Assembly: GCF_011170125.1 (NCBI RefSeq)
Contig: NZ_BLLN01000005.1
Location: 1,922,001-1,986,000, forward strand
Direction of reading: 5' to 3'
DNA from: Streptomyces diastaticus subsp. diastaticus
Lineage (GTDB): Bacteria > Actinomycetota > Actinomycetes > Streptomycetales > Streptomycetaceae
Length of the DNA: 64,000 nucleotides
The number at the start of each line of letters is the position of its first letter. Positions within the stretch are counted from its first letter, which is position 1. Below are positions 3,369-64,000 of this stretch, one piece after another. The notes beneath the pieces were generated by a model. The model was given only the letters and a program-made list of their open reading frames with translations, searched no databases and had not been told where the DNA came from. Made by a program: the position numbers and the translations under genes.

Positions 3369-6300
3369 GTGCGGGGCTACGAAGGCCAGGAGCGCCACCG
3401 AGCTGACGACCACCTCTCTCGGTTCGAAGCCGAGATGGACCGGCTGAAGACCGACCGGGAGAAGGCCGTTCAGCACGCCGAGGACCTCGGCTACCAGGTC
3501 GAGGTTCTGCGTGCCAAGCTGCACGAGGCCCGACGGGCGCTGGCGACGCGTCCCCACTCCTACGACACCGCGGACCTCGGCTACCAGGCCGAGCAGATGC
3601 TGCGGAACGCCCAGGCCCAGGCCGACCAGATGCGCGGCGACGCCGAGCGCGAGCTGCGCGAGGTCCGCTCCCAGACCCAGCGCATCCTCCAGGAGCACGC
3701 CGAGCAGCAGGCCCGCCTCCAGGCGGAGCTGCACACCGAGGCGGTCAACCGGCGCCAGCAGCTCGACCAGGAGCTGGCCGAGCGCCGCGCCACCGTCGAG
3801 TCCCACGTCAACGAGAACGTCGCCTGGGCCGAGCAGTTGCGGGCCCGTTCCGAGTCACAGGCCCAGCGGCTGCTGGACGAGTCCCGCGCGCAGGCGGAGC
3901 AGTCCCTCGCGGCGGCCCGCGCCGAGGCCCAGCGGCTCACCGAGGAGGCCCGCCGGCGGCTCGGTGAGGAGGCGGAGAACGCCCGGGCGGAGGCGGAGGC
4001 ACTGCTGCGCCGGGCCCGCGCCGACGCGGAGCGGATGCTGAACGCCGCCTCCCAGCAGGCGCAGGAGGCCACCGACCACGCCGAGCAGCTGCGTACCTCG
4101 ACGGCCACCGAGACCGACCAGGCGCACCGCCGGTCGGCGGAGCTGACCCGGGCCGCCGAGCAGCGGATGTCGGAGGCGGACGCGGCGCTGCGCGAGGCGA
4201 CCTCGCGCTCCGAGAAGCTGGTGGCCGAGGCGGAGGCCGCCGCGGCCAAGCGGATGGCGGCCGCCGAGGCCGCCGGTGAGCAGCGGACGAAGACGGCGCG
4301 GGAGCAGGTGGCCCGGCTGGTCGAGGAGGCCACCAAGGAGGCCGAGGCGGTCCGCGCCGAGGCCGAGGAGCTGCGCCGGCGCGCGGTCGCCGAGGCCGAG
4401 AAGGCGCGTGCGGAGGCGACCGAGAAGGCCCGTGCCGCGGCGGCCGAGGACTCCGCGGCGGCGCTGGCGAAGGCGGCCAGGACCGCCGAGGAGGTGCTCC
4501 AGAAGGCGTCGAAGGACGCGGAGGAGACCCGGCGGTCGGCCTCCGAGGAGGCCGAGCGGCTGCGCTCGGAGGCGGAGTCGGAGGCGGACCGGCTGCGGGC
4601 CGAGGCGCACGACCTCGCCGAGGAGCTGAAGGGCGCCGCCAAGGACGACACCAAGGAGTACCGCGCCAAGACCGTCGAGCTCCAGGAGGAGGCCCGGCGG
4701 CTGCGCGGCGAGGCCGAGCAGTTGCGTGCCGAGGCGGTCGCCGAGGGCGAGCGCATCCGGTCCGAGGCGCGCCGCGAGGCCCTCCAGCAGATCGAGGAGT
4801 CGGCCGGCACCGCCGAGGAGCTGCTGACCAGGGCCCGCGAGGACGCCGCCGAGGCCCGGGAGGCCGGCGAGGCGGACGGCGAGCGGACCCGGACGGAGTC
4901 GGCGGAGCGGGCGGCCGCGCTGCGCAAGCAGGCCGACGAGGCGCTGGAGCGGGCCCGCACGGAGGCGGCCAGGCTGGGCGAGGAGGCCGAGGAGGCCGCC
5001 GCCCGGACCCGCGAGGAGGCCGATCAGGCCGCGCGGGAGCTGCGCGAGGAGACCGAGGAGGCGGTGCGGGCCCGTCGCGAGGAGGCCGACGCCGAACTGG
5101 TGCGGCTCCGCGAGGAGGCCGAGCAGCGGGTCGTCTCGGCCGAGGAGGCGCTGACCGGGGCACGCGCCGAGGCGGCCCGGCTCCGCAAGGAGGCCGCCGA
5201 GGAGGCGGAGCGCACCCGCACGGAGGCGGCCGAGCGTGCCCGGACCCTCAGCGACCAGGCGGTCGAGGAGGCCGAGGCGCTGACGGCGACCGCGGCCGAG
5301 GAGGCGGCGGCGTCCCGCGCCGAGGGCGAGGCGGCCGCGGTGCGCCTGCGCGCCGAGGCGTCCGAGGAGGCCGAGCGGCTGAAGGCCGAGGCCCAGGAGG
5401 CCGCCGACAAGCTGCGCGCGGAGGCCGCGAGCGCGGCGGAGCGCACGGAGACGGAGGCCACCGAGGCGCTGGAGCGGGCTCAGGAGGAGGCGGCCCGCAG
5501 GCGGCGTTCGGCCGAGGAGGCGCTGGAGTCGGCGCGTGCCGAGGCCGGGCAGGAGCGCGAGCGGGCCCGGGAGCAGTCCGAGGAGCTGCTGGCCTCGGCG
5601 CGCAAGCGGGTCGAGGAGGCGGAGGCCGAGGCGGCGCGGCTGGTCGAGGAGGCGGACCGGCGGGCCAGCGAACTGGTGTCGGCCGCCGAGGCGACCGCCC
5701 AGCAGGTCCGGGACGCCGTCTCGGGTCTCCAGGAGCAGGCGCAGGAGGAGATCGCCGGGCTGCGGTCGGCGGCGGAGCACGCCGCGGAGCGCACCCGTAC
5801 CGAGGCGCAGGAGGAGGCGGACCGGGTCCGTTCCGACGCGCACGCGGAGCGCGAGCGGGCCGCCCAGGACGCGGCACGGCTGCGCGCGGAGGCGGCCGAG
5901 GAGCTGGAGACGGCGCGTTCGCTGGCCGAGTCGGCGGTCGCCGAGGCGACGGCGGAGTCGGAGAAGCTGCGCGCGGACGCCGGGAGTTACGCCCAGCGGC
6001 TGCGGTCGGAGGCGTCGGAGGCGCTGGCCTCTGCCGAGTCGGACGCCGCGAAGACGCGGGCCGAGGCCCGTCAGGACGCCAACCGGATGCGTACCGAGGC
6101 GGCCGAGCAGGCCGACCGGCTGGTCTCCCAGGCGGCCGAGGAGGCCGAGTCGCTGGGGGCGCGTTCCACCGAGGAGGCGGAGCGGCTCGGGGCCGAGGCG
6201 CGGGCCGAGGCCGAGCGGACGGTGACCGAGGCCGCCGGCGAGGCGGAGCGGCTGCGGGCCGAGGCGGCGCGCGCGGTGGCGGCGGCCGAGGAGCGGGCCG

Positions 6301-7232
6301 CCTCGGCCCGCGAGGAGGCGGAGCGGGTCGAGTCGCAGGCGCTGGCGGCGGCCGAGGAGCTGACCTCACAGGCGCGCGCCGAGGCGGACCGGACGCTGGA
6401 CGAGGCGCGGGCCGACGCCAACAAGCGGCGCTCGGAGGCGGCCGAGCAGGTCGACCGGCTGCTGAGCGAGACCGCGGCCGAGGCGGAGAAGCTGACCACC
6501 GAGGCCCAGCAGGCGGCGCTGAAGGCGACGACGGAGGCCGAGGCGCGGGCCGACTCGATGGTGGGCGCGGCCCGCGCGGAGGCCGAGCGGCTCGTCGCCG
6601 AGGCCACCGTGGAGGGCAACGGCCTGGTGGAGCGGGCCCGTACCGACGCCGACGAACTGCTGGTGGGCGCCCGCCGGGACGCCACGGCGATCCGTGAGCG
6701 CGCCGAGGAGCTGCGCGAGCGGGTCACCACGGAGATCGAGGAACTGCACGACCGGGCCCGCCGCGAGTCCTCGGAGGCGATGCGCACCGCGGGCGAGCGG
6801 TGCGACGCGCTGGTCAAGGCGGCCGAGGAGCAGGAGGCGAAGGCCCGGGCCGATGCCAAGGAGCTGCTGGCGGAGGCCGGTTCGGAGGCCGGCAAGGTCC
6901 GGATCGCCGCGGTGCGCAAGGCCGAGGGGCTGCTCAAGGAGGCCGAGCAGAAGAAGGCCGAGCTGGTCCGCGAGGCGGAGCAGGTCAAGCGGGAGGCCGA
7001 GGAGGAGGCCGAGCGGGTCGTCGCCGAGGGCCAGCGCGAGCTGGAGGTGCTGATGCGCCGTCGGGCCGACATCAACCAGGAGATCTCCCGCGTCCAGGAC
7101 GTGCTGGAGGCCTTGGAGGGCTTCGAGTCCCAGCCGGCCGGCAAGGCCGCTCCGAACGGTTCCGGAGGGAGCGTCAAGGCCGGTGCCTCGGCGGGCGGTT
7201 CTCGTTCGGGTGGCAAACAGGGCGAGAACTGA
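3369..7232 (+). CDS. scy: Polarized growth protein Scy
   Basis: About 1287 residues, almost entirely a heptad/hendecad coiled coil made of Ala-, Glu- and Arg-rich repeats (EAERLRAEA-like). The N-terminus RGYEGQER...HLSRFEAEM, followed by AEDLGYQVEVL, matches what I recall of S. coelicolor Scy. Scy is the scaffold of the hyphal-tip polarisome that recruits DivIVA and FilP and decides where new tips form. I chose GTG 3369; the frame stays open to 3186, but the extra 61 residues look non-coding. The tail ends in a Gly/Ser/Lys-rich stretch. Directly followed by its partner filP. Long repeats make this gene prone to length variation. Confidence 0.93.
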   Translation: MRGYEGQERHRADDHLSRFEAEMDRLKTDREKAVQHAEDLGYQVEVLRAKLHEARRALATRPHSYDTADLGYQAEQMLRNAQAQADQMRGDAERELREVRSQTQRILQEHAEQQARLQAELHTEAVNRRQQLDQELAERRATVESHVNENVAWAEQLRARSESQAQRLLDESRAQAEQSLAAARAEAQRLTEEARRRLGEEAENARAEAEALLRRARADAERMLNAASQQAQEATDHAEQLRTSTATETDQAHRRSAELTRAAEQRMSEADAALREATSRSEKLVAEAEAAAAKRMAAAEAAGEQRTKTAREQVARLVEEATKEAEAVRAEAEELRRRAVAEAEKARAEATEKARAAAAEDSAAALAKAARTAEEVLQKASKDAEETRRSASEEAERLRSEAESEADRLRAEAHDLAEELKGAAKDDTKEYRAKTVELQEEARRLRGEAEQLRAEAVAEGERIRSEARREALQQIEESAGTAEELLTRAREDAAEAREAGEADGERTRTESAERAAALRKQADEALERARTEAARLGEEAEEAAARTREEADQAARELREETEEAVRARREEADAELVRLREEAEQRVVSAEEALTGARAEAARLRKEAAEEAERTRTEAAERARTLSDQAVEEAEALTATAAEEAAASRAEGEAAAVRLRAEASEEAERLKAEAQEAADKLRAEAASAAERTETEATEALERAQEEAARRRRSAEEALESARAEAGQERERAREQSEELLASARKRVEEAEAEAARLVEEADRRASELVSAAEATAQQVRDAVSGLQEQAQEEIAGLRSAAEHAAERTRTEAQEEADRVRSDAHAERERAAQDAARLRAEAAEELETARSLAESAVAEATAESEKLRADAGSYAQRLRSEASEALASAESDAAKTRAEARQDANRMRTEAAEQADRLVSQAAEEAESLGARSTEEAERLGAEARAEAERTVTEAAGEAERLRAEAARAVAAAEERAASAREEAERVESQALAAAEELTSQARAEADRTLDEARADANKRRSEAAEQVDRLLSETAAEAEKLTTEAQQAALKATTEAEARADSMVGAARAEAERLVAEATVEGNGLVERARTDADELLVGARRDATAIRERAEELRERVTTEIEELHDRARRESSEAMRTAGERCDALVKAAEEQEAKARADAKELLAEAGSEAGKVRIAAVRKAEGLLKEAEQKKAELVREAEQVKREAEEEAERVVAEGQRELEVLMRRRADINQEISRVQDVLEALEGFESQPAGKAAPNGSGGSVKAGASAGGSRSGGKQGEN

Positions 7233-7490
7233 CGGGCCGACGGGACCAAGGGCCCGGTCACAGCGTCACCAGGGGGCCGTCCCCGGCCACGGGGGCGGAA
7301 AACTCGTACACGACGGCGTGGGAGGTGCGGTAATGGGCCGGTTCTGGGCCGATCTGGCAAGGGCTCCTACCGTCAGCCACCCAAAAGGGGTGTCATTCTC
7401 CAGATCAAACGGGCATCCGCTCGATGACACGCCGCTTTGGCCCCTAGGATTCCCTCTATCACCTCACCGGTCCCATTCGACAGGAACCCC

Positions 7491-8429
7491 ATGAGCGACA
7501 CTTCCCCCTATGGCTTCGAGCTTGTGCGGCGTGGGTACGACCGCGCTCAGGTGGACGAACGCATCTCCAAGCTCGTCTCCGACCGTGACAGCGCCCTCAC
7601 CCGCATCACCGCTCTGGAAAAGCGCATCGAGGAGCTGCACCTCGAAACGCAGAACGCGCAGGCCCAGGTGGCCGACGCCGAGCCGTCGTACGCCGGTCTG
7701 GGCGCCCGGGTAGAGAAGATCCTCCGCCTCGCCGAGGAGGAGGCGAAGGACCTGCGCGAGGAGGCCCGTCGCGCCGCCGAGCAGCACCGCGAGCTGGCGG
7801 AGTCCGCCGCGCAGCAGGTGCGTAACGACGCGGAGGCGTTCGCCACCGAGCGGAAGGCGAAGGCGGACGACGAGGGCGTCCGGATCGTCGAGAAGGCCAA
7901 GGGCGAGGCCAACGCGCTGCGTGCCGAGGCCCAGAAGGACGCGCAGTCCAAGCGCGAGGAGGCGGACGCCCTCTTCGAGGAGACCCGCGCCAAGGCCGCG
8001 CAGGCCGCCGCCGACTTCGAGACCAACCTCGCCAAGCGCCGCGAGCAGTCGGAGCGGGACCTGGCCTCGCGTCAGGCGAAGGCGGAGAAGCGCCTCGCGG
8101 AGATCGAGCACCGGGCGGAGCAGCTGCGCCTGGAGGCCGAGAAGCTGCGCACCGACGCCGAGCGCCGTGCCCGCCAGACGGTGGAGACCGCGCAGCGCCA
8201 GGCGGAGGACATCGTGGCCGACGCCAACGCCAAGGCCGACCGCATCCGCAGCGAGTCCGAGCGCGAGCTGGCGGCGCTCACCAACCGCCGCGACTCGATC
8301 AACGCCCAGCTCACCAACGTCCGCGAGATGCTGGCCACGCTCACGGGCGCGGCCGTCGCCGCCGCGGGCGCCCCGGCGGCCGAGGACGACTCCGCCTCGC
8401 GCGGCGTCCCGGCCCAGCAGTCCCGCTGA
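7491..8429 (+). CDS. filP: FilP, intermediate-filament-like coiled-coil protein
   Basis: 312-residue coiled-coil protein beginning MSDTSPYGFELVRRGYDRAQ, the hallmark of Streptomyces FilP, which shares its start region with the DivIVA-like GYdraqVD motif. FilP polymerises into a network behind the hyphal tip, gives mechanical stiffness, and binds DivIVA and Scy. The N-terminal 45 residues form a DivIVA-like patch, followed by a long Ala/Glu/Lys/Arg coiled coil to about residue 275 and a short flexible tail ending GVPAQQSR. Start ATG 7491; the frame is open 18 codons upstream without similarity. It has its own 258-bp upstream region and a hairpin terminator downstream. Confidence 0.95.
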   Translation: MSDTSPYGFELVRRGYDRAQVDERISKLVSDRDSALTRITALEKRIEELHLETQNAQAQVADAEPSYAGLGARVEKILRLAEEEAKDLREEARRAAEQHRELAESAAQQVRNDAEAFATERKAKADDEGVRIVEKAKGEANALRAEAQKDAQSKREEADALFEETRAKAAQAAADFETNLAKRREQSERDLASRQAKAEKRLAEIEHRAEQLRLEAEKLRTDAERRARQTVETAQRQAEDIVADANAKADRIRSESERELAALTNRRDSINAQLTNVREMLATLTGAAVAAAGAPAAEDDSASRGVPAQQSR

Positions 8430-54253: not shown

Positions 54254-54325
54254 GCCCCCGTAGCTCAGGGGATAGAGCAACGGCCTCCGGAGCCGTGTGC
54301 GCAGGTTCGAATCCTGCCGGGGGCA
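54254..54325 (+). tRNA. tRNA-Arg, anticodon CCG
   Basis: 72-base cloverleaf: acceptor GCCCCCG/CGGGGGC, D-arm GCTC/GAGC, anticodon stem ACGGC/GCCGT with loop CTCCGGA (anticodon CCG, reads CGG), T-arm GCAGG-TTCGAAT-CCTGC, discriminator A. CCA is not encoded. Promoter-like TAGTGT lies about 35 bases upstream. It marks the boundary of the accessory island. Confidence 0.96.
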
Positions 54326-54343
54326 CCTTGCATGAGGTGCCCA

Positions 54344-54710: not shown

Positions 54711-56885
54711 TCATCGCTCTGTCGGCGCGACCACTCCCGCTTCCAGGAGAAACGGGCTCGGCTCTCCGGTCCATGAGACGTACAGACCGTCCCGGGCACG
54801 AGTGCAGGCGACGAAGAGCAGACAGCGTTCGGCCAGCAGGTCCGTCTCGTGCTGGAGGCTGTCGACCTCAGGAGGCGTGATCGCCCTGGGGTAGGGAAGT
54901 GCGCCTTCGCGCACCCCGATGACCGCGACATACCGGTACTCGAGACCCTTGAACGCGTGCATGGTGCCGACGTTGACAGCGTCGGCGGGTGAGGTGTCCC
55001 CCCGCAGGCGGGCTGCGGGAATGCCGGCGGCGCGGAGGGCCTCGACGGCTTGGTCACCGTTCTTCTTGAAGCGTGCGGTGATACCGATGTCGGACGGCTG
55101 GACGCCGTTGGCGAGCCAGGTGCGGACGCGGGCGGTCAGAGCCGCCATCTCGGCCTCGGACGTGTCCGCGCGATGGACCTCGGGACCATTGCCTCGCAGC
55201 GAGGAGCGGTAGCCGAGAAGTGTGTCGTGACGGGAGTCGTCGGCGAGGTCGTCGAAGGGGCGCCCGTGGAGAAGGGCCGTCGACCAACTGAGGATCTCGT
55301 GGGTGGATCGGTAGTTCTTGCGCATCCGCGTGGAGCGGCCTGCCACCTTGACCCCGACGCTCTTCAAGGAGACCTTGCAGTCGTAGATGCGCTGGTGCGG
55401 GTCACCGGCGATGAACAGGTCGTCGGGGCGCTCGGGAGCCGCGGCCCGGAGCAGGCGCCACTGGGCGGGGTGGAGGTCCTGGGCCTCGTCGACGACGACA
55501 TGGCGATACCGGGGGCCTGTCTCGCGCAGTCGGTCGGCCGCCTCGGAGCAGGTACCGAGGTAGGTGCGCAGATGATCGGCGGCCAGCTTCTCGGTGAACT
55601 CATGGACAGTGCGCCAGACGGCCGCCCGGGACGAGGCCGGCAGGGCGCTCCCGCGGCCCTTGCGGTCGGCGGCCGTGTATGCCTCGACGGTACGGAGGTC
55701 CTGTGCGAGCAGTACGTGCTTGTACTCCTGAGCCAGGAACTGAGGCGTTCCGTTGCACCCGGTCGCCGCTGCCGCGGCTTCCCATCGGGCGGTCTCCTCC
55801 TGCGAGTGGATCGGCCTGCGGGAGGTGGAGAGGACACGCGCGGCGAATGAGTCGACCGTCATGATGTCGACCCGGGCCCGCAGCGCCTCGTCCTCGACCA
55901 GCCCGGCAAGGCCGTTGCGCAAGGCGGCGACGAGAGCGGTGGTGTAGGTGGTGAGCAGAACGCGTTCCCCCTCGCGGAGGTGGCGCAGGAGGTGGCGTAC
56001 CCGGTGCAGGGCGACGACGGTCTTGCCGGTGCCAGGTCCGCCGGTCACCTGGGCGGGGCCGGAGTACGAGGGCCGGTAGGCCACCTTGTGCTGGGAAGGG
56101 TGGAGGAAGACGCGCCACGCCTCGAACGGTTTGTCGAGGATGTCGCGGAGCTCGTCGGAGGCCGTGACGACGGCGATACGGGTGCGGGTGTGGCGGATCG
56201 CGGTGTCGTAGTCCGCGGGATCCACCGGCTGGACGGCGGCCTGGTCTGCGAGGTGGAGGGAGACGACGTCGCGCCAGACCTCTTCCACGGTGAAGCCGGC
56301 CGCCAGATACTCGAGGACTTCGCGCTGGTCCTGCGGGAAGTGCGGGGCGAACACTTCCAGTTGCTCCACGTCGGTCAGAACGCGGGCCTGGCGCAGCGTG
56401 GTCGCGTCGACGCCCAGGGCAGCGAGGTCGCCGTCGGAGAACTTCGCGAACAGCCGTCTCTCGGGCGAGGGAGCGATGCGCTCGTAAGCCGGGGCGAGCT
56501 GCTCCAGGGTGGCCATGTCCCGGATCTCCACCGCTCGGGTCACCGTGTTGATGCTGGCCTTCTGCTTCAGAGCCCAGGCGATGGCCTTGTCGTGTGGCAT
56601 GACTCGCAGCAGGACGTAGGTGTCGCCGCCCTCCGGTGCCAGGACGACACCGCGAACGCCCTGGGAGATGCGGATGGTACGGATGGGGCTGTACCTGTCC
56701 TTGCTCCCCGTAAGCGCTTCGAGGCGCAGCCCCTTGTCCTTGCGAAGCTGGTCGTGGGTGAGCTGCTCGAACTTCTCCCAGGTGTCGAAAACGCCCTGCC
56801 TGACCGTGGGCTGGAGCTTGTTGAGCTGGGCGCAGAAGGCGATGTCGAAGGCCAGGTGGGGCACGGGTGGGGCTCTCCTCGTCAT
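54711..56885 (-). CDS. UvrD-like helicase with N-terminal RelE/ParE-like domain
   Basis: 724 residues. Residues about 10-108 resemble RelE/YoeB-type mRNA interferases (FDIAFCAQLNKL, GLRLEALTG, YSPIRTIRIS, RVMPHDKAIAWA). The remainder is a superfamily-1 helicase: Q-motif-like region, Walker A GGPGTGKT (282-289), VVVDEAQDLHPAQW, GDPHQRIYD, NYRSTHEIL and a C-terminal GTMHAFKGLEYRYV with VACTRARDGLYV. A nuclease domain is not seen. ATG 56885 has GAGAG upstream; GTG 56909 possible. It follows the AIPR gene by 58 bp, same direction. Probably part of an anti-phage module. Confidence 0.87.
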   Translation of the reverse strand: MTRRAPPVPHLAFDIAFCAQLNKLQPTVRQGVFDTWEKFEQLTHDQLRKDKGLRLEALTGSKDRYSPIRTIRISQGVRGVVLAPEGGDTYVLLRVMPHDKAIAWALKQKASINTVTRAVEIRDMATLEQLAPAYERIAPSPERRLFAKFSDGDLAALGVDATTLRQARVLTDVEQLEVFAPHFPQDQREVLEYLAAGFTVEEVWRDVVSLHLADQAAVQPVDPADYDTAIRHTRTRIAVVTASDELRDILDKPFEAWRVFLHPSQHKVAYRPSYSGPAQVTGGPGTGKTVVALHRVRHLLRHLREGERVLLTTYTTALVAALRNGLAGLVEDEALRARVDIMTVDSFAARVLSTSRRPIHSQEETARWEAAAAATGCNGTPQFLAQEYKHVLLAQDLRTVEAYTAADRKGRGSALPASSRAAVWRTVHEFTEKLAADHLRTYLGTCSEAADRLRETGPRYRHVVVDEAQDLHPAQWRLLRAAAPERPDDLFIAGDPHQRIYDCKVSLKSVGVKVAGRSTRMRKNYRSTHEILSWSTALLHGRPFDDLADDSRHDTLLGYRSSLRGNGPEVHRADTSEAEMAALTARVRTWLANGVQPSDIGITARFKKNGDQAVEALRAAGIPAARLRGDTSPADAVNVGTMHAFKGLEYRYVAVIGVREGALPYPRAITPPEVDSLQHETDLLAERCLLFVACTRARDGLYVSWTGEPSPFLLEAGVVAPTER

Positions 56886-56943
56886 GGCGTGCTCTCGGAG
56901 GTGTGGCACCTCGGTGGCGCCACACCTCTCCGCGTGGCCGCGG

Positions 56944-59106
56944 TCAGTCTGCCGCGGACTCCTCGTCGGGGGCGTTCTCCAGCTCGTCCAGGGCTCGCCG
57001 GGCGAGATCGACCAGGGTGTCTCCGCCCTTGACCGCCCAGCGGGCAGGGCCCTGGTTGGCGACCGGCCGGTTCTTCCAGTCGGCCAGCTCCCACATGTGG
57101 GTGATGAGCCCGGACGGCGAGTACTGCTTGCCGTCGGCCGCCCACAGGAGCGGCTTGGTCCGGTGGTTCAGCCACGTGGCGCGCGAGCGGCGGGGGTCCT
57201 TCTCCAGCCACTCCCTCAGAGCGGCCTGTTCCACAGGGAAGGCCGTGTGCAGGGTCAGCGGCGTCTCCTCCGGGAGGAGACCGTGGTCGATGATGACCTT
57301 GACGGCGTTGGGCCGCCTACGCTTCCGCTGGGCACTGGTGCGGCGGTAGGTGTCCGGGACGGGCCCGCTCTGCGGTCCCCGCAGAGCGTTGACGACATCG
57401 TCGGCGAGCTCACGGCAGCGGTCGGCGTCGGCGCACACGGCACGAATCTGGGAGCGCGAGGTGTAGCGGGCATCGATGGCGGCGGCCAGGGCAGGCAAGA
57501 GCTGCTCGACGAGCTCAGGAGCACGGCTCGTCGCGGACTCGGCCCAGCTGAGGCCGGGATCGGGCTCGTCCATGGCTTCGGCGCCCAACAGGCGGAACAC
57601 CAGGTGCGTGAGGAGGTACACGCCGTGTTCCGTCAGGGCTGCTCCCCGGCGTTCGTAGCGGGGGCGCAGCCGGTGCAGGGTCTTGCGTACCGTACGCAGC
57701 ACCTGTACGGCGTTCCACACGAGGTAGGGGCTGGGCTGCGGACGGAACAGCACGTCGTAGATGCCCTGGGAACCTCTCTCCCACAGCACGTCCAGGGTGA
57801 CCGCCATGCGGGCCGCGTACTGGCTGTCCGAGTGGACGCAGCCGAGGGCACAGGCAGCCTCGACGACCGAGCACCCCGTCTCCTCCGGAGGTTCGAGTTC
57901 ACTGCGGCGGACGCTGTAGTCCAGACCGAGTTCGGCGCGCATCTCCTCCATGAGCGAGGCCTGCACCGGATCCAGAGCGATGAAGTCGCGTGGCTCCACC
58001 TTGTTCTGCCGGTTGGTGGCCTGAGTGATCTCCTTGGCGAACTTCTCGGACTTTCCGGTGACGATGATGCGGACGCCGACCTGGGCGACGGCCGCGTCGT
58101 CACCATCCGCCAGTGCCTCCGCGACCGACCGGACGGTCTGGGCTCCGTTCACGACGCTGGCGTTGCGGAGAGTGAGTCCGAGCGGGTACCTCTCCGGGGC
58201 CCGCATGGACTGGTGGGTCTTCTCCGCCTCCTCACAGAGCACGGTCACGCCGTTGTTGAAGTACCAGAAGTTGCCCGGCTCCTCGGTGAGCGTCTGGATC
58301 AACGCGCTGTTGATGGGGGTGCGGCCCAGCGGATTGCGGATGTTGAGGTTGAAGAGGCTGTCACCGTGCTCGAGCCACTGAGCCACACACTCCGCCGGTA
58401 CCTGCCCCTGATAGGAGACGTGCGGCGAGCTGACCGAGTACCAGGGGAAGAGTTCCGCCTGGAGATCGACCTTCTTGGGAGCGATGTCCTCGCGCACCGA
58501 GGCCCACACTTCGCGGGAGAGGATGATGCGGTGGTCGAGGACCTCGCCGTTTCGGTTGAACTCGTTTTCTCCCACCTTGATGGCCTGGCGGAAGCCCTCG
58601 GTGACGTCGTCGGCCCGCATCAGCACGATGACCTGGGTGACGGTGACGGGTCCGCTCGCCATCACGGCCTTGGCGCGCTCCGCGAGCACCCGGCCACGGG
58701 GGTTGAACTCCGCGAAGTCCTCGTCATCGATGAGCCGGAGTCCGGTGAGGAGTTCCTGGACCGCGGAACGGTCGCTCGACGCCCTGCCGTGGGCACTCCA
58801 TTTGGCCTGCACGAGGTAGACGTGCTTCTCGGGCTTCTCGACCACGGCGATGGCGTCGATGCCCTGGTCCGCCATTCCGTCGATGACGGTGTAGGCCGCC
58901 TCCTGCGGAGTCCAGCCGGTGACCATGCGTACCGCCTGCGCGGTGAGGGCGCGCGAGAGGAGCCGGGGGGTGCGTTCCTGCTCGGGTTTCCCTTCCAGGT
59001 CGCCGACGTCCAGCAGGTCCTCATAGGTGGTGCGCAGCGCCTTCTCCACCTGACGCACCTGAAGTGCCACATCTGCGTGGGAAGCCGAGGTCTTCTTCGC
59101 GCTCAC
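56944..59106 (-). CDS. AIPR (abortive phage infection) protein with N-terminal nuclease-like motif
   Basis: 720 residues. The AIPR domain (about 235-560) shows NIRNPLGRTPINSALIQTL, FWYFNNGVTVLCEE and ASVVNGAQTVRS, the family signature. Before it, GMADQGIDAIAV...VYLVQAKW (Asp84, Gln100, Lys102) fits a PD-(D/E)XK nuclease of the Mrr-like QxK type. AIPR proteins are linked to abortive infection and found in defence islands, but the mechanism is not established. GTG 59106 has GGGAGGG nine bases upstream, favouring it over TTG 59124. In line with the kinase gene upstream and the helicase downstream. Confidence 0.88.
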   Translation of the reverse strand: MSAKKTSASHADVALQVRQVEKALRTTYEDLLDVGDLEGKPEQERTPRLLSRALTAQAVRMVTGWTPQEAAYTVIDGMADQGIDAIAVVEKPEKHVYLVQAKWSAHGRASSDRSAVQELLTGLRLIDDEDFAEFNPRGRVLAERAKAVMASGPVTVTQVIVLMRADDVTEGFRQAIKVGENEFNRNGEVLDHRIILSREVWASVREDIAPKKVDLQAELFPWYSVSSPHVSYQGQVPAECVAQWLEHGDSLFNLNIRNPLGRTPINSALIQTLTEEPGNFWYFNNGVTVLCEEAEKTHQSMRAPERYPLGLTLRNASVVNGAQTVRSVAEALADGDDAAVAQVGVRIIVTGKSEKFAKEITQATNRQNKVEPRDFIALDPVQASLMEEMRAELGLDYSVRRSELEPPEETGCSVVEAACALGCVHSDSQYAARMAVTLDVLWERGSQGIYDVLFRPQPSPYLVWNAVQVLRTVRKTLHRLRPRYERRGAALTEHGVYLLTHLVFRLLGAEAMDEPDPGLSWAESATSRAPELVEQLLPALAAAIDARYTSRSQIRAVCADADRCRELADDVVNALRGPQSGPVPDTYRRTSAQRKRRRPNAVKVIIDHGLLPEETPLTLHTAFPVEQAALREWLEKDPRRSRATWLNHRTKPLLWAADGKQYSPSGLITHMWELADWKNRPVANQGPARWAVKGGDTLVDLARRALDELENAPDEESAAD

Positions 59107-59211
59107 GTGTTGTTCCCTCCCCAAGGGCCGCGCGCCCGCGCCGCTGTCACCCTTTGTCGATCGGATGATCGCACATCGTCACCCCGGGCTGTCGAGTGTC
59201 GTCCTCGCGCG

Positions 59212-60813
59212 TCAGCCCTGGGGAAGATCCGGCCCGAAGCGGATCACCGCGAGGATGTCGGCGATCTCGACGGTGAGTTCGTCGTCCGGGCCCTGGACGA
59301 CGAGCAGGTCCGCGTGGAGGGGCTCCAACAGGGCGAGGGCTTCCGCGGTTTTGCCTTGGGCGAGGAGGAGCATGGCGATGTCCCGGCGGAGCACGACGGC
59401 CCCTTCGCTGACGTCGCTCTCCGTCGTGCGGATCAGGTCGAGAACCGCGCGGAGGTCGGCCAGTGCCTCTGTCGCCTGGCCGAGTTCGGCGCGGCAGCGG
59501 GCGGCCTGGGCGCGGCAGTCGAGGGCCTGTCGACCGGTGGGCCCGACCGTCCGGGCGTAGGCGCCCGCGAGGGTCTCGAACTCCGGGAGGGCGGCGCGGA
59601 AGTCGCCACCGAGGAGCAGGCTGACAGCGCGCCGGGTGCGCAGGGCCAGTACGGCTCTGTGGTCCGCGCCCAGGGCCCGGGCGGCGCGGTCGGCCATCTC
59701 GCCGGCGACCTCGGCGGCCTGCGCGAAGCGCTCCTCGTCCATGAGGGCGTCGTAATGGGTGTGGACTTCCCTGATCTCCTCGCGCAGTTCTTCGGAGAGG
59801 AGGCCGGGCACCGGGTGCGCCGGCGCCGGGGCCCCCGGAGCGGGCTGTGGCGCCGGTGCGGCAGCACGCGACCGTGGGGCGTAGGGCTGCCGGAAGAGGC
59901 GGGTGGGGTCGGGCATCTGCCGCGGAACGCCGCCCCGGGGTTCGGGCCGCTCCCCGGGTGCTGGAAGGAAGGGACGCAGCCGCTCGTACACTTCCTGGCT
60001 GTCGGCGGGGCGTTCCCCGGGGTCCTTGCGCAACAGGTGCAGGACGAGGTCTTCGAGGCCGGCGGGCACCTCGGAGCGGAGTTCCCGGAGCGGGGTGGGG
60101 GCCTGGGTGACGTGCTGGGTCATCAGCGCGTACTCGCCCTCACCGGGGAACAGGAGCTGGCCGCTGAGGAGTTCGTGAAGGACGCAGCCCAGGGCGTACA
60201 GGTCCGCGCGGGGAGTGATCTGGCCCTTGCGGATCTGCTCGGGCGACATGTACTGGTAGGTGCCGAGCAGGCTGCCGGTCGCGGTCAGCTTGGTGACGTC
60301 GGTACGCAGCATGGCGGCGATGCCGAAGTCGAGGACCTTAACGGTGCCGTCGCGAGCGACGATGATGTTGGACGGCTTCAGGTCGCGGTGGACGACCGGT
60401 ACGTCATGGGCCCAGGAGAGCACGGTGGCGACCTGGGCGGCGACGGCTGCCGCCCAGCCGATGGGAAGCGACGGCGCCACCTCCCCGGGGATGGGGCGCA
60501 GGTACTTCGTGAGGGTGACGCCGTCCACCAGCTCCATCACCAGGTAGAGGTGGTGGAAGCTCTGGTCGAGGACGGCGTCGAAGACCTGCGGGACGCCGGG
60601 GTGCTGGATGCGGGCGGTGACCCGGGCCTCACGCTGGAAGCGCTTCTCGAACTCCACGGCCAGCGCGGGAGAGGTGACGGACTCCCGCCGGATGAGCTTC
60701 ACCGCGACGGGGCGGTCCAGGACTGCGTCGTACCCTCGCCACACGTGGCCCATGCCACCGCTGCTGATCGGCTCCAGGAGTTCGTAGCGTCCCGCGATCT
60801 GCTGTTCCGGCAC
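59212..60813 (-). CDS. Hanks-type Ser/Thr kinase with TPR-like C-terminus
   Basis: 533 residues. Kinase domain 10-280: glycine loop ISSGGMGHVW, Lys39 (VAVKLI), catalytic HRDLKPSN (Asp144), DFG (162-164) and the activation segment GTYQYMSPEQI. After a Pro/Ala-rich linker (about 300-340) the C-terminal 190 residues are helical repeats with TPR character (ALAALRTRRAVSLLLGGDF, ALADLRAVLDLI). No transmembrane helix, so it is cytosolic, unlike most PknB-type kinases. GTG 60813 with a weak ribosome-binding site. Located between HsdR and AIPR genes. Confidence 0.9.
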   Translation of the reverse strand: MPEQQIAGRYELLEPISSGGMGHVWRGYDAVLDRPVAVKLIRRESVTSPALAVEFEKRFQREARVTARIQHPGVPQVFDAVLDQSFHHLYLVMELVDGVTLTKYLRPIPGEVAPSLPIGWAAAVAAQVATVLSWAHDVPVVHRDLKPSNIIVARDGTVKVLDFGIAAMLRTDVTKLTATGSLLGTYQYMSPEQIRKGQITPRADLYALGCVLHELLSGQLLFPGEGEYALMTQHVTQAPTPLRELRSEVPAGLEDLVLHLLRKDPGERPADSQEVYERLRPFLPAPGERPEPRGGVPRQMPDPTRLFRQPYAPRSRAAAPAPQPAPGAPAPAHPVPGLLSEELREEIREVHTHYDALMDEERFAQAAEVAGEMADRAARALGADHRAVLALRTRRAVSLLLGGDFRAALPEFETLAGAYARTVGPTGRQALDCRAQAARCRAELGQATEALADLRAVLDLIRTTESDVSEGAVVLRRDIAMLLLAQGKTAEALALLEPLHADLLVVQGPDDELTVEIADILAVIRFGPDLPQG

Positions 60814-61115
60814 TGCGTCCCACGTCCCCGTTCCTCACCCGGCGTCCGTACTGTCCCGTGCCGGTACGTGTTTGGTGCGTTCCAGTTTCGGCGGTGGGGT
60901 GATCTTCCGTCCAGCCCTTGCGAGTCGGCCGGTGGGGCGGAGGGGCGGAGGGTCCGCTGCGGTCGCGCCGCCCGTCCGCTTCGCAGGGGGCGGGCGACGC
61001 GAGCACCGAGGAGTGGTACGACCGGCCCCCTCACCCCTGCTGGCAAAGGCGCCCCGGAGCCCGGAGTGGGGCCAGGCGCGCCCCCGTCCAACGCGCCGGG
61101 CCCGTGCCCCGTCGA
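60814..61115. other. Gap between HsdR and kinase genes
   Basis: 302 bp, GC-rich, no gene and no strong hairpin; likely contains a promoter for the kinase-AIPR-helicase unit. Confidence 0.4.
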
Positions 61116-64000
61116 CTAGTCCAAGCCCTCCTCATCACGGATCATCCGCCAGGCCGCGCGGCGGGCGCTGCGGTCCAGGTTGGACTTGAAGCTGGAGTCG
61201 GCGGCGAAGTATCGGCGGCCCAGATCCGCGGTGTGCGAGATGTGATCCATCATGTTCTCGTTGAACTTCTTGTCCCAGACGACGGCGAAGTTCTCCTCGT
61301 CGTTGACGAGGGCGGCCGCCTTGACCTTCGGGTCCTCCTTGGTGGCGAGGAAGGCCGGCAGGACGTCCGCCTCGGTGAAGTCGGTGCCGAACTTCTCGTT
61401 GAACCGGTCGATCAGTTCGGACAGCAGCGACTTCTCGGCCTCCTGGGCGCCGCCGGCGCCGTCGCCGAAGCCCTTCAGCTCCGCGGGTCCTTCGGGGCTC
61501 AGGGACACGTCCACTTCGCCGGTCCTCACGACCCGCAGGTGGCTGAGGTCGATCTCCCCCACGTCCACGCCGCCGTCCGCGCGGCGGGGCAGGCGGTTGA
61601 GGAGGTGGCGGCCGTACAGGTGGAGGCGTTCCAGCTCGGGGTCCTGGTAGGGCACGATCTGGGCGAGGAAGCCGTACTTGCGCACGTAGTCGTGGAGGTC
61701 CGCGCGGAAGTCCTCGGCCGCCTCCACACTGTCGTCGTCGTCCGGGTCGTCCAGGAGAGCGGTGAAGCGGGCCACGGCCGGGCCGAGCAGCCGGTACAGC
61801 TCGGCGTGCCGCTTCTCCCACTTCGCCTGCGAGCCGGCGGCCTTCTCCTTCGCCGCGAAGTAGGCCGCGGCGAACGCGTCCATCTCCTGCTCGGTGATGA
61901 CCGGGGCCCCCATGACGCGGCCCTGGGCGGTGTAGAGGAGGTTGGGGTCCGAGGGGAGGGTGTGCGCCTCCTCGAAGTACGGGCGGAAGGCGTCCTGGAT
62001 GTCCTCGGCGTCGTTGACGAAGTCCAGGACGGCCAGGTCGGCCTGGGACTTGCGGTCCGCGGTGCGGTTGAGCCGGGAGAGGGTCTGGACGGCGGAGATG
62101 CCGGTCAGCTTCTTGTTGACGTACATCGTCGTCAACAGCGGCTGGTCGAAACCCGTCTGGTACTTCTCCGCCACCACCAGGATCTTGTACTCGGGGTCGC
62201 CCTTGCCGCCGGCCTTGACGGCCTTGTCGTCAGCCCGGGTGTAGCCGAACGCCTTCGGCAGGGCGCTCTCGGCGATGCCGCCGTTCTCCTTCGTCTCCGT
62301 GGTCTCCTCGCCGTCGAGGGTGAGGGAGCCGGAGAAGGCGACGAGGACACCCAGGTCCGGGTACTTCGTGTCGTACTCGCGATCCTTGATGTAGCTCTTG
62401 ATCGCGCGCGCCATCTGCACGGCCGACTGCCGGGAGGCAGTCACCACCATGGACTTGGCCCGGCCGCCGAGCCTTCCCCGCGTGTGGGTGACGAAGTGCT
62501 CCACGATGACCTGTGCGTGCTGGGAGACCGTGTGGTCGTGGGTGAGGGCGAAGCGGGCGAGGAGGCTGTTGGCCTTCGAGGGGTCGACCTCCATCTCGTC
62601 CGGGTTCTGGTTCACCAGCTTCCAGTACGTGTTGTAGGTGACGTAGTTGCGGAGTGGGTCGAGGATGAACCCCTCCTCGATCGCCTGCCGCATGGAGTAC
62701 GTGTGGAAGGGCCGGTAGACCTCCTTGCCGTTCTCTGGAACCGGGGCGCCGAAGAGTTCCAGCGTCTTCGCCTTCGGGGTCGCGGTGAAAGCGAAGTAGG
62801 AGAGGTTGGCGGCGCGGCTGCGCTCCACGGCCTTCTTCTTGAGCTGGTCGTCGACGGTCGCGGTGGTGGCGCCCTCGTCGTCGGAGTCGGAGTCGAGTCC
62901 CAGGTCACGGAGGGCGGAGCGGACGGCCGTGGAGGCGTCGCCGGACTGGGAGGAGTGCGCCTCGTCGATGACGATGGCGAACCGGCCGCCCTTCAGCTCG
63001 GTCGGGTTGCGCTTGAGGTAGTCCAGCAGGGCCGGGAACGAGTGCAGGGTGACCGTGACGATCTTGCCCGTGTCGCGGGCGAGGGCGCGGGCCAGCTGCT
63101 CGCTCTTGGCACCGTGCCTTTCGTCGATCTTCACCACCAGGCCCTCAGTCTGGGAGAACCCGCCGACGGTCTCCCGGAGCTGGGCGTCGAGGTTGCGGCG
63201 GTCGGTGATGACGATGATCTTGTCGAAGACCGGTTCGCCGGGTGCGATCCGCCCGGCCGCCAGCGCCTCGGTGTCGAGGGTGCGCGGGTCGTTGTCCGCG
63301 TGGAGGTCGGAGAGGCGGTGGACCAGCCACCCGATCGTGTTCGACTTGCCGGAACCCGCGGAGGCCATCACCAGGTAGTTCTGCCCGGCGCCGTGGGTCG
63401 CGGCGTGGGCGGCCAGCTTACGCACCGCGTCCCACTGGTGGAAGCGCGGGAAGATGGTGGACCGGGTGGAACCTCCGCCGGGCGTCCGGTGCTTCTGCTG
63501 GTGGACGTAGCGGTGGAGCAGGTCCAGCCAGTTGTCCCGTTCCCAGAGCTGCTCCCAGAGGTACGAGGTGGCGTACGTACCGAACGCGGTCGGCGCGGGG
63601 TTGCCGGCGCCGCCGGGCTGACCGGGTCCGTTCGAACCGGTGTTGAGCGGGAGGAAACGCGTGGCCTTGCCGCGGAGCTGGGTCGCGACGAAGACGAGGT
63701 CGGGGTCGACGGCGAAGTTGGCGACGACCCGGCGGGTGAAGATCAGCTCGGTCGGGTCGCGGTCGGCGCGGTACTGCTCCTTGGCGCGTTCGACGCCCTG
63801 GCCGGTGAGCGGGTTCTTCAGCTCGGCGGTGGCCACGGGGATGCCGTTGAGGAAGAGGGCGAGGTCAAGCTTGTGCCCCCAGTCCGTCTGCTTGGTCGCG
63901 TAGGGGAGCTCTCGCACGACCGTGAGACGGTTGGCCCGGTAGCCGTCCAGGATGGAGTCGTCGGCGACGAGGTTCGGCTTGAAGTAGGCGACGCGGATGA
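61116..64000 (-). CDS. hsdR: Type I restriction enzyme subunit R (5' part outside window)
   Basis: The frame stays open to the window edge, giving 960 codons; the N-terminal 50-100 residues are missing (HsdR is usually 1000-1050). Nuclease motif LDLALFLNGIPVATAELKNPLTGQ (Glu-x-Lys, near 63820), translocase Walker A ASAGSGKS (near 63365), DEAH as VIDEAHSSQSG, then VAEKYQTGFDQPLL and LSRLNRTADRK of the second RecA domain, and a C-terminal helical HsdM-contact domain. It translocates DNA and cuts unmodified sites. HsdM and HsdS are not in the window and should lie upstream on the minus strand. Confidence 0.94.
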   Translation of the reverse strand, partial: IRVAYFKPNLVADDSILDGYRANRLTVVRELPYATKQTDWGHKLDLALFLNGIPVATAELKNPLTGQGVERAKEQYRADRDPTELIFTRRVVANFAVDPDLVFVATQLRGKATRFLPLNTGSNGPGQPGGAGNPAPTAFGTYATSYLWEQLWERDNWLDLLHRYVHQQKHRTPGGGSTRSTIFPRFHQWDAVRKLAAHAATHGAGQNYLVMASAGSGKSNTIGWLVHRLSDLHADNDPRTLDTEALAAGRIAPGEPVFDKIIVITDRRNLDAQLRETVGGFSQTEGLVVKIDERHGAKSEQLARALARDTGKIVTVTLHSFPALLDYLKRNPTELKGGRFAIVIDEAHSSQSGDASTAVRSALRDLGLDSDSDDEGATTATVDDQLKKKAVERSRAANLSYFAFTATPKAKTLELFGAPVPENGKEVYRPFHTYSMRQAIEEGFILDPLRNYVTYNTYWKLVNQNPDEMEVDPSKANSLLARFALTHDHTVSQHAQVIVEHFVTHTRGRLGGRAKSMVVTASRQSAVQMARAIKSYIKDREYDTKYPDLGVLVAFSGSLTLDGEETTETKENGGIAESALPKAFGYTRADDKAVKAGGKGDPEYKILVVAEKYQTGFDQPLLTTMYVNKKLTGISAVQTLSRLNRTADRKSQADLAVLDFVNDAEDIQDAFRPYFEEAHTLPSDPNLLYTAQGRVMGAPVITEQEMDAFAAAYFAAKEKAAGSQAKWEKRHAELYRLLGPAVARFTALLDDPDDDDSVEAAEDFRADLHDYVRKYGFLAQIVPYQDPELERLHLYGRHLLNRLPRRADGGVDVGEIDLSHLRVVRTGEVDVSLSPEGPAELKGFGDGAGGAQEAEKSLLSELIDRFNEKFGTDFTEADVLPAFLATKEDPKVKAAALVNDEENFAVVWDKKFNENMMDHISHTADLGRRYFAADSSFKSNLDRSARRAAWRMIRDEEGLD

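Follow-up and report, generated by a model that had tools for sequence, protein, structure and literature searches.

We asked whether four neighboring genes at the end of the window, which is the whole 64,000-nucleotide stretch of DNA that was analyzed (G000:C5:1922001-1986000 of a 7.08-Mb genome whose closest protein matches point to the genus Streptomyces), belonged to one defense system or to several. The earlier note had described four consecutive minus-strand genes beside a tRNA gene, and it had treated HsdR alone as restriction and a kinase-AIPR-helicase trio as a possible separate unit. All of these genes were present. Specifically, the minus strand carried genes for a UvrD/Rep-type SF1 helicase of 724 aa (54711-56885, from the ATG at 56885; Pfam UvrD-helicase, 3e-23), an AIPR-family protein of 720 aa (56944-59106, GTG start at 59106; Pfam AIPR, 9.5e-32; PADLOC AbiU, 1.2e-31), a Ser/Thr (Hanks-type) kinase of 533 aa with a TPR-like C-terminus (59212-60813; Pfam Pkinase, 9e-45), and a 1058-aa HsdR (61116-64292, the window ending at 64000; Pfam SWI2_SNF2, 2e-17, and HSDR_N, 4e-6). 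The neighboring tRNA gene was tRNA-Arg(CCG) on the plus strand (54254-54327; ARAGORN). Within the trio, the starts given here do yield the spacings of 105 and 58 bp that had been stated; an alternative helicase start at about 56864, which is suggested by the closest database form (P0001, 717 aa), leaves about 79 bp to the AIPR gene. Pfam agreed with the proposed domain labels, namely, UvrD-helicase, AIPR, Pkinase, and SWI2_SNF2/HSDR_N, and the exception was the RelE label of the helicase, which is discussed below.

These four genes make up the 3' portion of a longer locus, which extends beyond the end of the window. The ATG of hsdR was found at window coordinate 64292, 292 bases beyond the end of the window (read in stretch L002), and hsdR was followed by hsdS, hsdM, and then a gene that we refer to as MTHTH (read in L002 and L003). 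MTHTH encodes a 737-aa N6-methyltransferase with N-terminal HTH-like and C-terminal specificity-like parts, both of which were weak matches. Because hsdS and hsdM lie beside hsdR outside the window, the type I restriction-modification (RM) set is complete. As in known HsdRMS systems, the expected domains (HsdM_N and N6_Mtase, Methylase_S, and HSDR_N and SWI2_SNF2) were present in one cluster, all above the Pfam cut-offs; the match of HsdR to the NCBI model TIGR00348 had an E-value of 1e-40, yet its 140 of 285 bits fell under the cut-off. Unlike those systems, the locus adds a near-constant kinase, a second, HTH-containing methyltransferase, and changeable effectors. Past MTHTH, where the locus has its 5' end, the opposite strand carried a DndB-like gene and an adjoining GmrSD gene. 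The GmrSD-type protein had an extra C-terminal RAMA domain (PF18755, 1.7e-18; L003 3463-5625, window coordinates 71462-73624).

We searched 121 Streptomyces genomes for AIPR, the helicase, HsdR, and MTHTH, and we also searched 296 genomes of the class and 396 genomes of the phylum for HsdR. The survey rests on sampled genomes because a scan of close-relative contigs gave two loci only. Stretches of up to 20 kb were taken around the loci, and genes were marked by tblastn with the proteins of our own genome. Loci with an HsdR at least 45% identical by tblastn were assigned to the kinase clade, and loci with an HsdR of 34 to 44% identity were treated as outside it. The counts leave out six HsdR places at 38 to 40% identity in the genus sample, two partial matches in the class sample (G265 and G285), and 3 of the 23 new places in the phylum sample (G705, G737, and G780); L063 duplicated L059, and the two were counted once.

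The loci of the kinase clade had the order MTHTH-hsdM-hsdS-hsdR-kinase with few exceptions. The kinase lay on the same strand as hsdR and no more than 9 kb 3' of it in 39 of 44 loci and in both of two later loci, one on a linear Streptomyces mirabilis plasmid (L138) and one in a genome outside the class (L156), giving 41 of 46. In G052 and G072, the kinase was 12 to 15 kb from hsdR with inserted genes between them, in G070 it was on another contig, and G006 retained just a 42-aa kinase stub; L075, with an HsdR of 46% identity, was without a kinase within 9 kb. MTHTH was located in front in 37 of the 44 loci, and of the other seven, by our own reading, six were cut by the stretch edge and L050 was without MTHTH. 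Next to the more distant HsdR proteins, the kinase was found in none of 36 loci (0 of 17 and 0 of 19), although its absence is weaker in seven of these (L089, L090, L140, L145, L153, L154, and L157) because their 3' flanks were shorter than 6 kb. Two loci of the kinase-free set had weak kinase-like matches: in L098, a match of 27% identity was part of a 705-aa protein with an ATPase-looking start, and in L085, a fragment was located more than 3 kb in front of hsdM. The MTHTH matches in the kinase-free loci were merely cross-hits of hsdM. A tree was built from 60 HsdR proteins, which were labeled by locus with G006 and G070 included and L075 left out; in it, one branch with an SH-aLRT value of 100 split the 43 kinase-clade rows from the 17 others.

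The kinase also diverged in step with HsdR. Pairwise identities correlated with those of HsdR at 0.96 for HsdM (n=41), 0.96 for the kinase (n=38), 0.93 for MTHTH (n=30), and 0.95 for the helicase (n=13); the values were 0.49 for AIPR (n=13) and 0.12 for HsdS, for which the comparison was restricted to 19 loci with a well-called S ORF. AIPR and HsdS show that residence in the locus does not give a high correlation by itself, although HsdS also varies for reasons of its own. The locus is a genuine and widespread variant of type I RM in which the kinase is nearly constant.

The survey bears directly on the proposal that the kinase, AIPR, and helicase genes form an independent defense unit that merely lies next to an ordinary hsdR. 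In favor of this proposal, 302 bp separate hsdR from the kinase, which is more than either gap within the trio and could reflect separate transcription; other genes intervene between hsdR and the kinase in several relatives, and several loci have the kinase and helicase without AIPR. An independent trio is nonetheless improbable, given that the kinase tracked HsdR and kept within reach of it in the clade but not outside, and that AIPR, the middle gene of the trio, was in line after the kinase in only 5 of the 44 loci (L002, L023, L025, L060, and L061). AIPR was found elsewhere within 9 kb in eight more loci, and it behaved as a loosely linked member. The division of hsdR from a trio went wrong because the window cuts the locus. 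The intact order hsdR-kinase-AIPR-helicase did extend beyond this strain, as it was present in 3 of the 44 loci (L002, which is our own, L023, and L061), and two more loci (L025 and L060) had the order with a broken helicase gene. Regarding the company that AIPR and the helicase keep, which the earlier note had wished to see examined, the kinase and hsdR were beside both in some loci, but AIPR and the helicase each also occurred without the other and elsewhere.

Several observations were made on the kinase and its surroundings. Pfam placed the Pkinase domain at residues 10 to 270 and a TPR_12 domain at residues 437 to 497, and PADLOC matched the kinase to PD-T4-6 (4e-91) and mad6 (2e-66). In a tree of kinase domains (40 system rows and 22 other rows), the system kinases needed four changes, and a single clade was neither rejected (p-AU 0.113) nor shown. 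In many relatives, two ORFs separated hsdR from the kinase, a divergent one of about 300 aa and a small one; the locus of the window had neither. Two such ORFs that were scanned encoded an XRE/DUF5753 regulator and a HATPase_c_2 protein (L061 7532-8476 and L039 12023-12463), and ORFs of similar size were present at the same place in L023, L025, L038, and others. In G052, an RHS-repeat protein of 1618 aa that has a T7SS signal domain was encoded between hsdR and the kinase (L043 3187-8043). Our own genome also contained two kinase-like matches with identical scores on separate contigs (G000:C1:401818-403185 and G000:C2:1565241-1566608); they point to a duplication, perhaps in the form of a terminal repeat.

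The tRNA-Arg(CCG) site bounds the locus and is an insertion hotspot in Streptomyces. The stretches of 10 relatives were compared, with the Ku-like and response-regulator labels read from sequence. In L100 and L104, a response regulator gene, tRNA-Arg, and a Ku-like gene followed one another, the Ku-like gene being about 0.2 to 0.3 kb from the tRNA; the corresponding distance was about 7 kb in L102 and 26 kb in our own genome. A search of our own genome for a target-site duplication found no second tRNA-Arg 3' end (at least 22 of 30 matches) within 35 kb, so the insertion is argued from the empty site and not from att repeats. By our own reading, short fragments of the tRNA-Arg 3' end were present about 2 to 39 kb away in seven relatives. 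A presumed aldehyde dehydrogenase gene was considered as the right border and was rejected, as it reached an E-value of 1e-200 or lower only in our own genome of the 41 compared.

Such a hotspot raises the possibility of a defense island, in which unrelated systems piled up by the tRNA with no functional coupling and the kinase is a long-standing passenger. The contrast between the empty site of L100 and L104 and the occupied one here, the adjoining GmrSD-RAMA and DndB-like genes, and the presence of AIPR and the helicase in other contexts are all in keeping with an island. Chance neighbors, however, would not be expected to retain the MTHTH-hsdM-hsdS-hsdR-kinase order with matched divergence across several families, and in one genome from a different class as well. 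An island suits AIPR and GmrSD better than it suits the kinase, and we consider it an unlikely account of the locus.

The proposal of a multi-gene defense locus was supported, and among the matches listed in the single-protein scans, no family set covered all four genes together. The locus resembled MADS, the methylation-associated defense system (Maestri et al. 2024, as cited in PMC12904381 and PMC11842806), which shares an HTH, an N6-methyltransferase, an S subunit, and a Ser/Thr kinase with the locus. If the locus were a divergent MADS, the matches of MTHTH to mad2 (1e-24) and mad1 (8e-6), of the kinase to mad6, and of HsdS to MADS5 (5e-8) would be accounted for, as would the AAA gene of some relatives, which resembled MADS3 (3e-20 in L030). 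Against NCBIfam models, however, each protein fell far under the cut-off: the kinase scored 138 of 460 bits for MAD6, MTHTH and HsdM scored 31 and 58 of 720 bits for MADS2, and HsdS scored 32 of 400 bits for MADS5. Moreover, no MADS4, 7, or 8 was among the matches listed at E-values of 0.01 or lower, and the locus has canonical HsdM and HsdR. Thus, the locus resembles MADS in sequence at a level below the family cut-offs, and its identity with MADS seems distinctly unlikely. A BREX type 2/Pgl-like system, with the kinase PglW and a methylase, was already disfavored and is very improbable. A kinase, a methylase, and a helicase do occur together in this Streptomyces locus and the kinase matched PglW, but the match had 62 of the 990 bits needed, and no PglZ, PglX, or BrxC was among the matches listed for the locus proteins that were scanned.

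In the case of the helicase, the best PADLOC match was GajB of Gabija (1.6e-33), but the helicase has an extra N-terminal domain, and when nine proteins of our own locus were scanned, GajA, the partner of GajB in Gabija, was not among the matches listed. The helicase gene came next after the kinase gene in 14 of the 44 loci (12 in the main count, plus G052 and G072), and in G070, it followed the kinase on the other contig. Where present, the helicase tracked HsdR closely, so it may be an old part that many lineages have since lost, and not one that is exchanged. Its catalytic motifs were intact. The N-terminal domain (56562-56861, minus strand; model residues 9 to 108) had 25 invariant columns in 11 sequences. 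The earlier note had labeled it RelE, and this label was not confirmed: nine N-terminal pieces had no RelE/ParE match in Pfam at E-values up to 10, the N-terminal profile had no RelE/ParE match among PDB sequences, and a structural second look, which barely covered the residues before 258, found no RelE/ParE there. By our own reading, the domain resembles RelE/ParE in the order of its helices and strands only, as assigned by DSSP in a model of moderate quality (pLDDT 67). A helicase homologue of about 50% identity was also found within 1 kb of an MTHTH relative at 15 places in 13 of the 121 Streptomyces genomes, the adjacency being checked in L054, L055, and L056. The helicase therefore also lives outside the kinase-bearing system, and it is possible that the helicase and the HTH-N6-methyltransferase relative form a separate defense pair.

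The AIPR protein scored 111 bits against a Pfam cut-off of 25, and by our own reading of the match table, 19 of the 37 Streptomyces genomes with matches (of 121) had full-length ones. It models as three domains, namely, a PD-(D/E)XK nuclease (58480-59070), a ParB/Srx-like fold (57994-58440), and a RAMA-like DNA-reader domain (56980-57318), all on the minus strand, in a model of moderate quality (pLDDT 73) for which Foldseek alone gave no significant match. The nuclease motif D86..D90..Q106-x-K108 (numbering of the 726-aa reading) was intact. The RAMA label of the C-terminus comes solely from structural comparison, in which the fold match was positive; by sequence, the hhalign probability was 1.4 when the C-terminus was compared with a few RAMA sequences from GmrSD proteins, and Pfam RAMA was unmatched. 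RAMA sequences are described as poorly conserved in the available part of PMC9963953, which also states that 6mA did not alter the binding of MPND to DNA, so a RAMA-like fold is no proof of methylation reading. AIPR/AbiU proteins have been linked to RM and DndB in the available parts of PMC3506569 and PMC2292703, and here AIPR lies beside RM genes with a DndB-like gene in the same locus. The AIPR proteins in that part of PMC3506569 have an N-terminal HEPN domain, unlike the predicted N-terminal nuclease and RAMA-like C-terminus of ours. The modification-sensing nucleases SspE and GmrSD differ, by our own reading, in domain order and nuclease type.

The relatives had different genes in the place between hsdS and hsdR. 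In L030, this place was occupied by an AAA and DUF4276 pair that matched HEC-01A/B (7e-120 and 6e-76), and on the basis of similarity, such a pair was also assigned to L029 and L065. L073 had a Septu pair (PtuA, 8e-171, and PtuB, 2e-93; 5751-7906), L066 had AIPR, and L072 and L074 had GmrSD-like genes. These different inserted units point to a modular back-up layer. According to the available part of PMC12707154, PrrC in EcoprrI and PARIS act as guardians of RM. As in the present locus, these effectors are encoded within or next to type I RM genes and could come into play once restriction is blocked, whereas the parts here are a nuclease, a helicase, and a kinase. By analogy and short of proof, the changeable effectors would fit this guardian pattern. 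Back-up nucleases are also reported for BREX and DUF499-centered relatives in the available part of PMC12839542, in which the words HsdR, HsdM, AIPR, and MADS are absent.

The explanation that we prefer, with a likelihood that we place a little short of even, is an actinobacterial branch of type I RM that has a near-constant HTH-N6-methyltransferase and Ser/Thr kinase, changeable back-up effectors, and regulation by the kinase. The case for the architecture is strong, as gene set, order, clade, co-inheritance, and domain make-up were all observed; the mechanism is one that we infer. In this type I RM branch, host DNA would be marked by HsdM/HsdS and, separately, by MTHTH, and unmarked phage DNA would be pulled in and cut by HsdR/HsdM/HsdS. 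The kinase might watch the state of the RM complex or infection via its TPR-like tail and phosphorylate a partner in the system, which would most likely toggle restriction or modification or release the back-up layer. In our own strain, the back-up would be the AIPR protein, a PD-(D/E)XK nuclease that a ParB/Srx-like nucleotide switch would keep in check and the RAMA-like reader would direct to DNA. The UvrD-type helicase, a putative second back-up part, would unwind or strip DNA, and both proteins would act on the DNA of the phage or of the infected cell. Because HEC-01, Septu, and GmrSD-like units lie inside the systems of relatives, the chassis appears to take different second lines.

A more specific version, that a type I RM is directly controlled by its own Ser/Thr kinase, is possible but doubtful. 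The kinase would either switch modification and restriction or release second-line effectors when a phage blocks restriction, and in this strain these effectors would be a methylation-reading, nucleotide-gated AIPR nuclease and the helicase. If this were true, it would be, to our knowledge, the first phospho-switched type I RM, and the second line of a single chassis could be made up of Septu, HEC-01, GmrSD-like, or AIPR/helicase genes. Phage defense based on methylation repeatedly involves kinases (Pgl and MADS), and we know of no settled role for them in either system. Here, the kinase is tied to a well-understood enzyme, and the kinase-free sister clades are natural controls, so its role in restriction is directly testable. 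In the open-access literature, no description was found of a type I RM clade in which a kinase is a fixed member; most subscription papers, the MADS paper among them, were outside this search. Specifically, such a clade was absent from the available parts of PMC12839542, PMC10853773, PMC9963953, PMC12904381, PMC11842806, PMC3506569, PMC2292703, PMC12707154, and PMC13373217.

The predicted domain make-up of AIPR would also give a concrete mechanism to a family that is large and so far poorly explained. AIPR homologues of 33 to 36% identity were found beside other methyltransferases or kinases in L034, L035, L036, and L037, and some of the proteins there were about 1400 aa long and had a kinase-like match. 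In view of these varied neighbors, AIPR seems to serve several modification-based systems.
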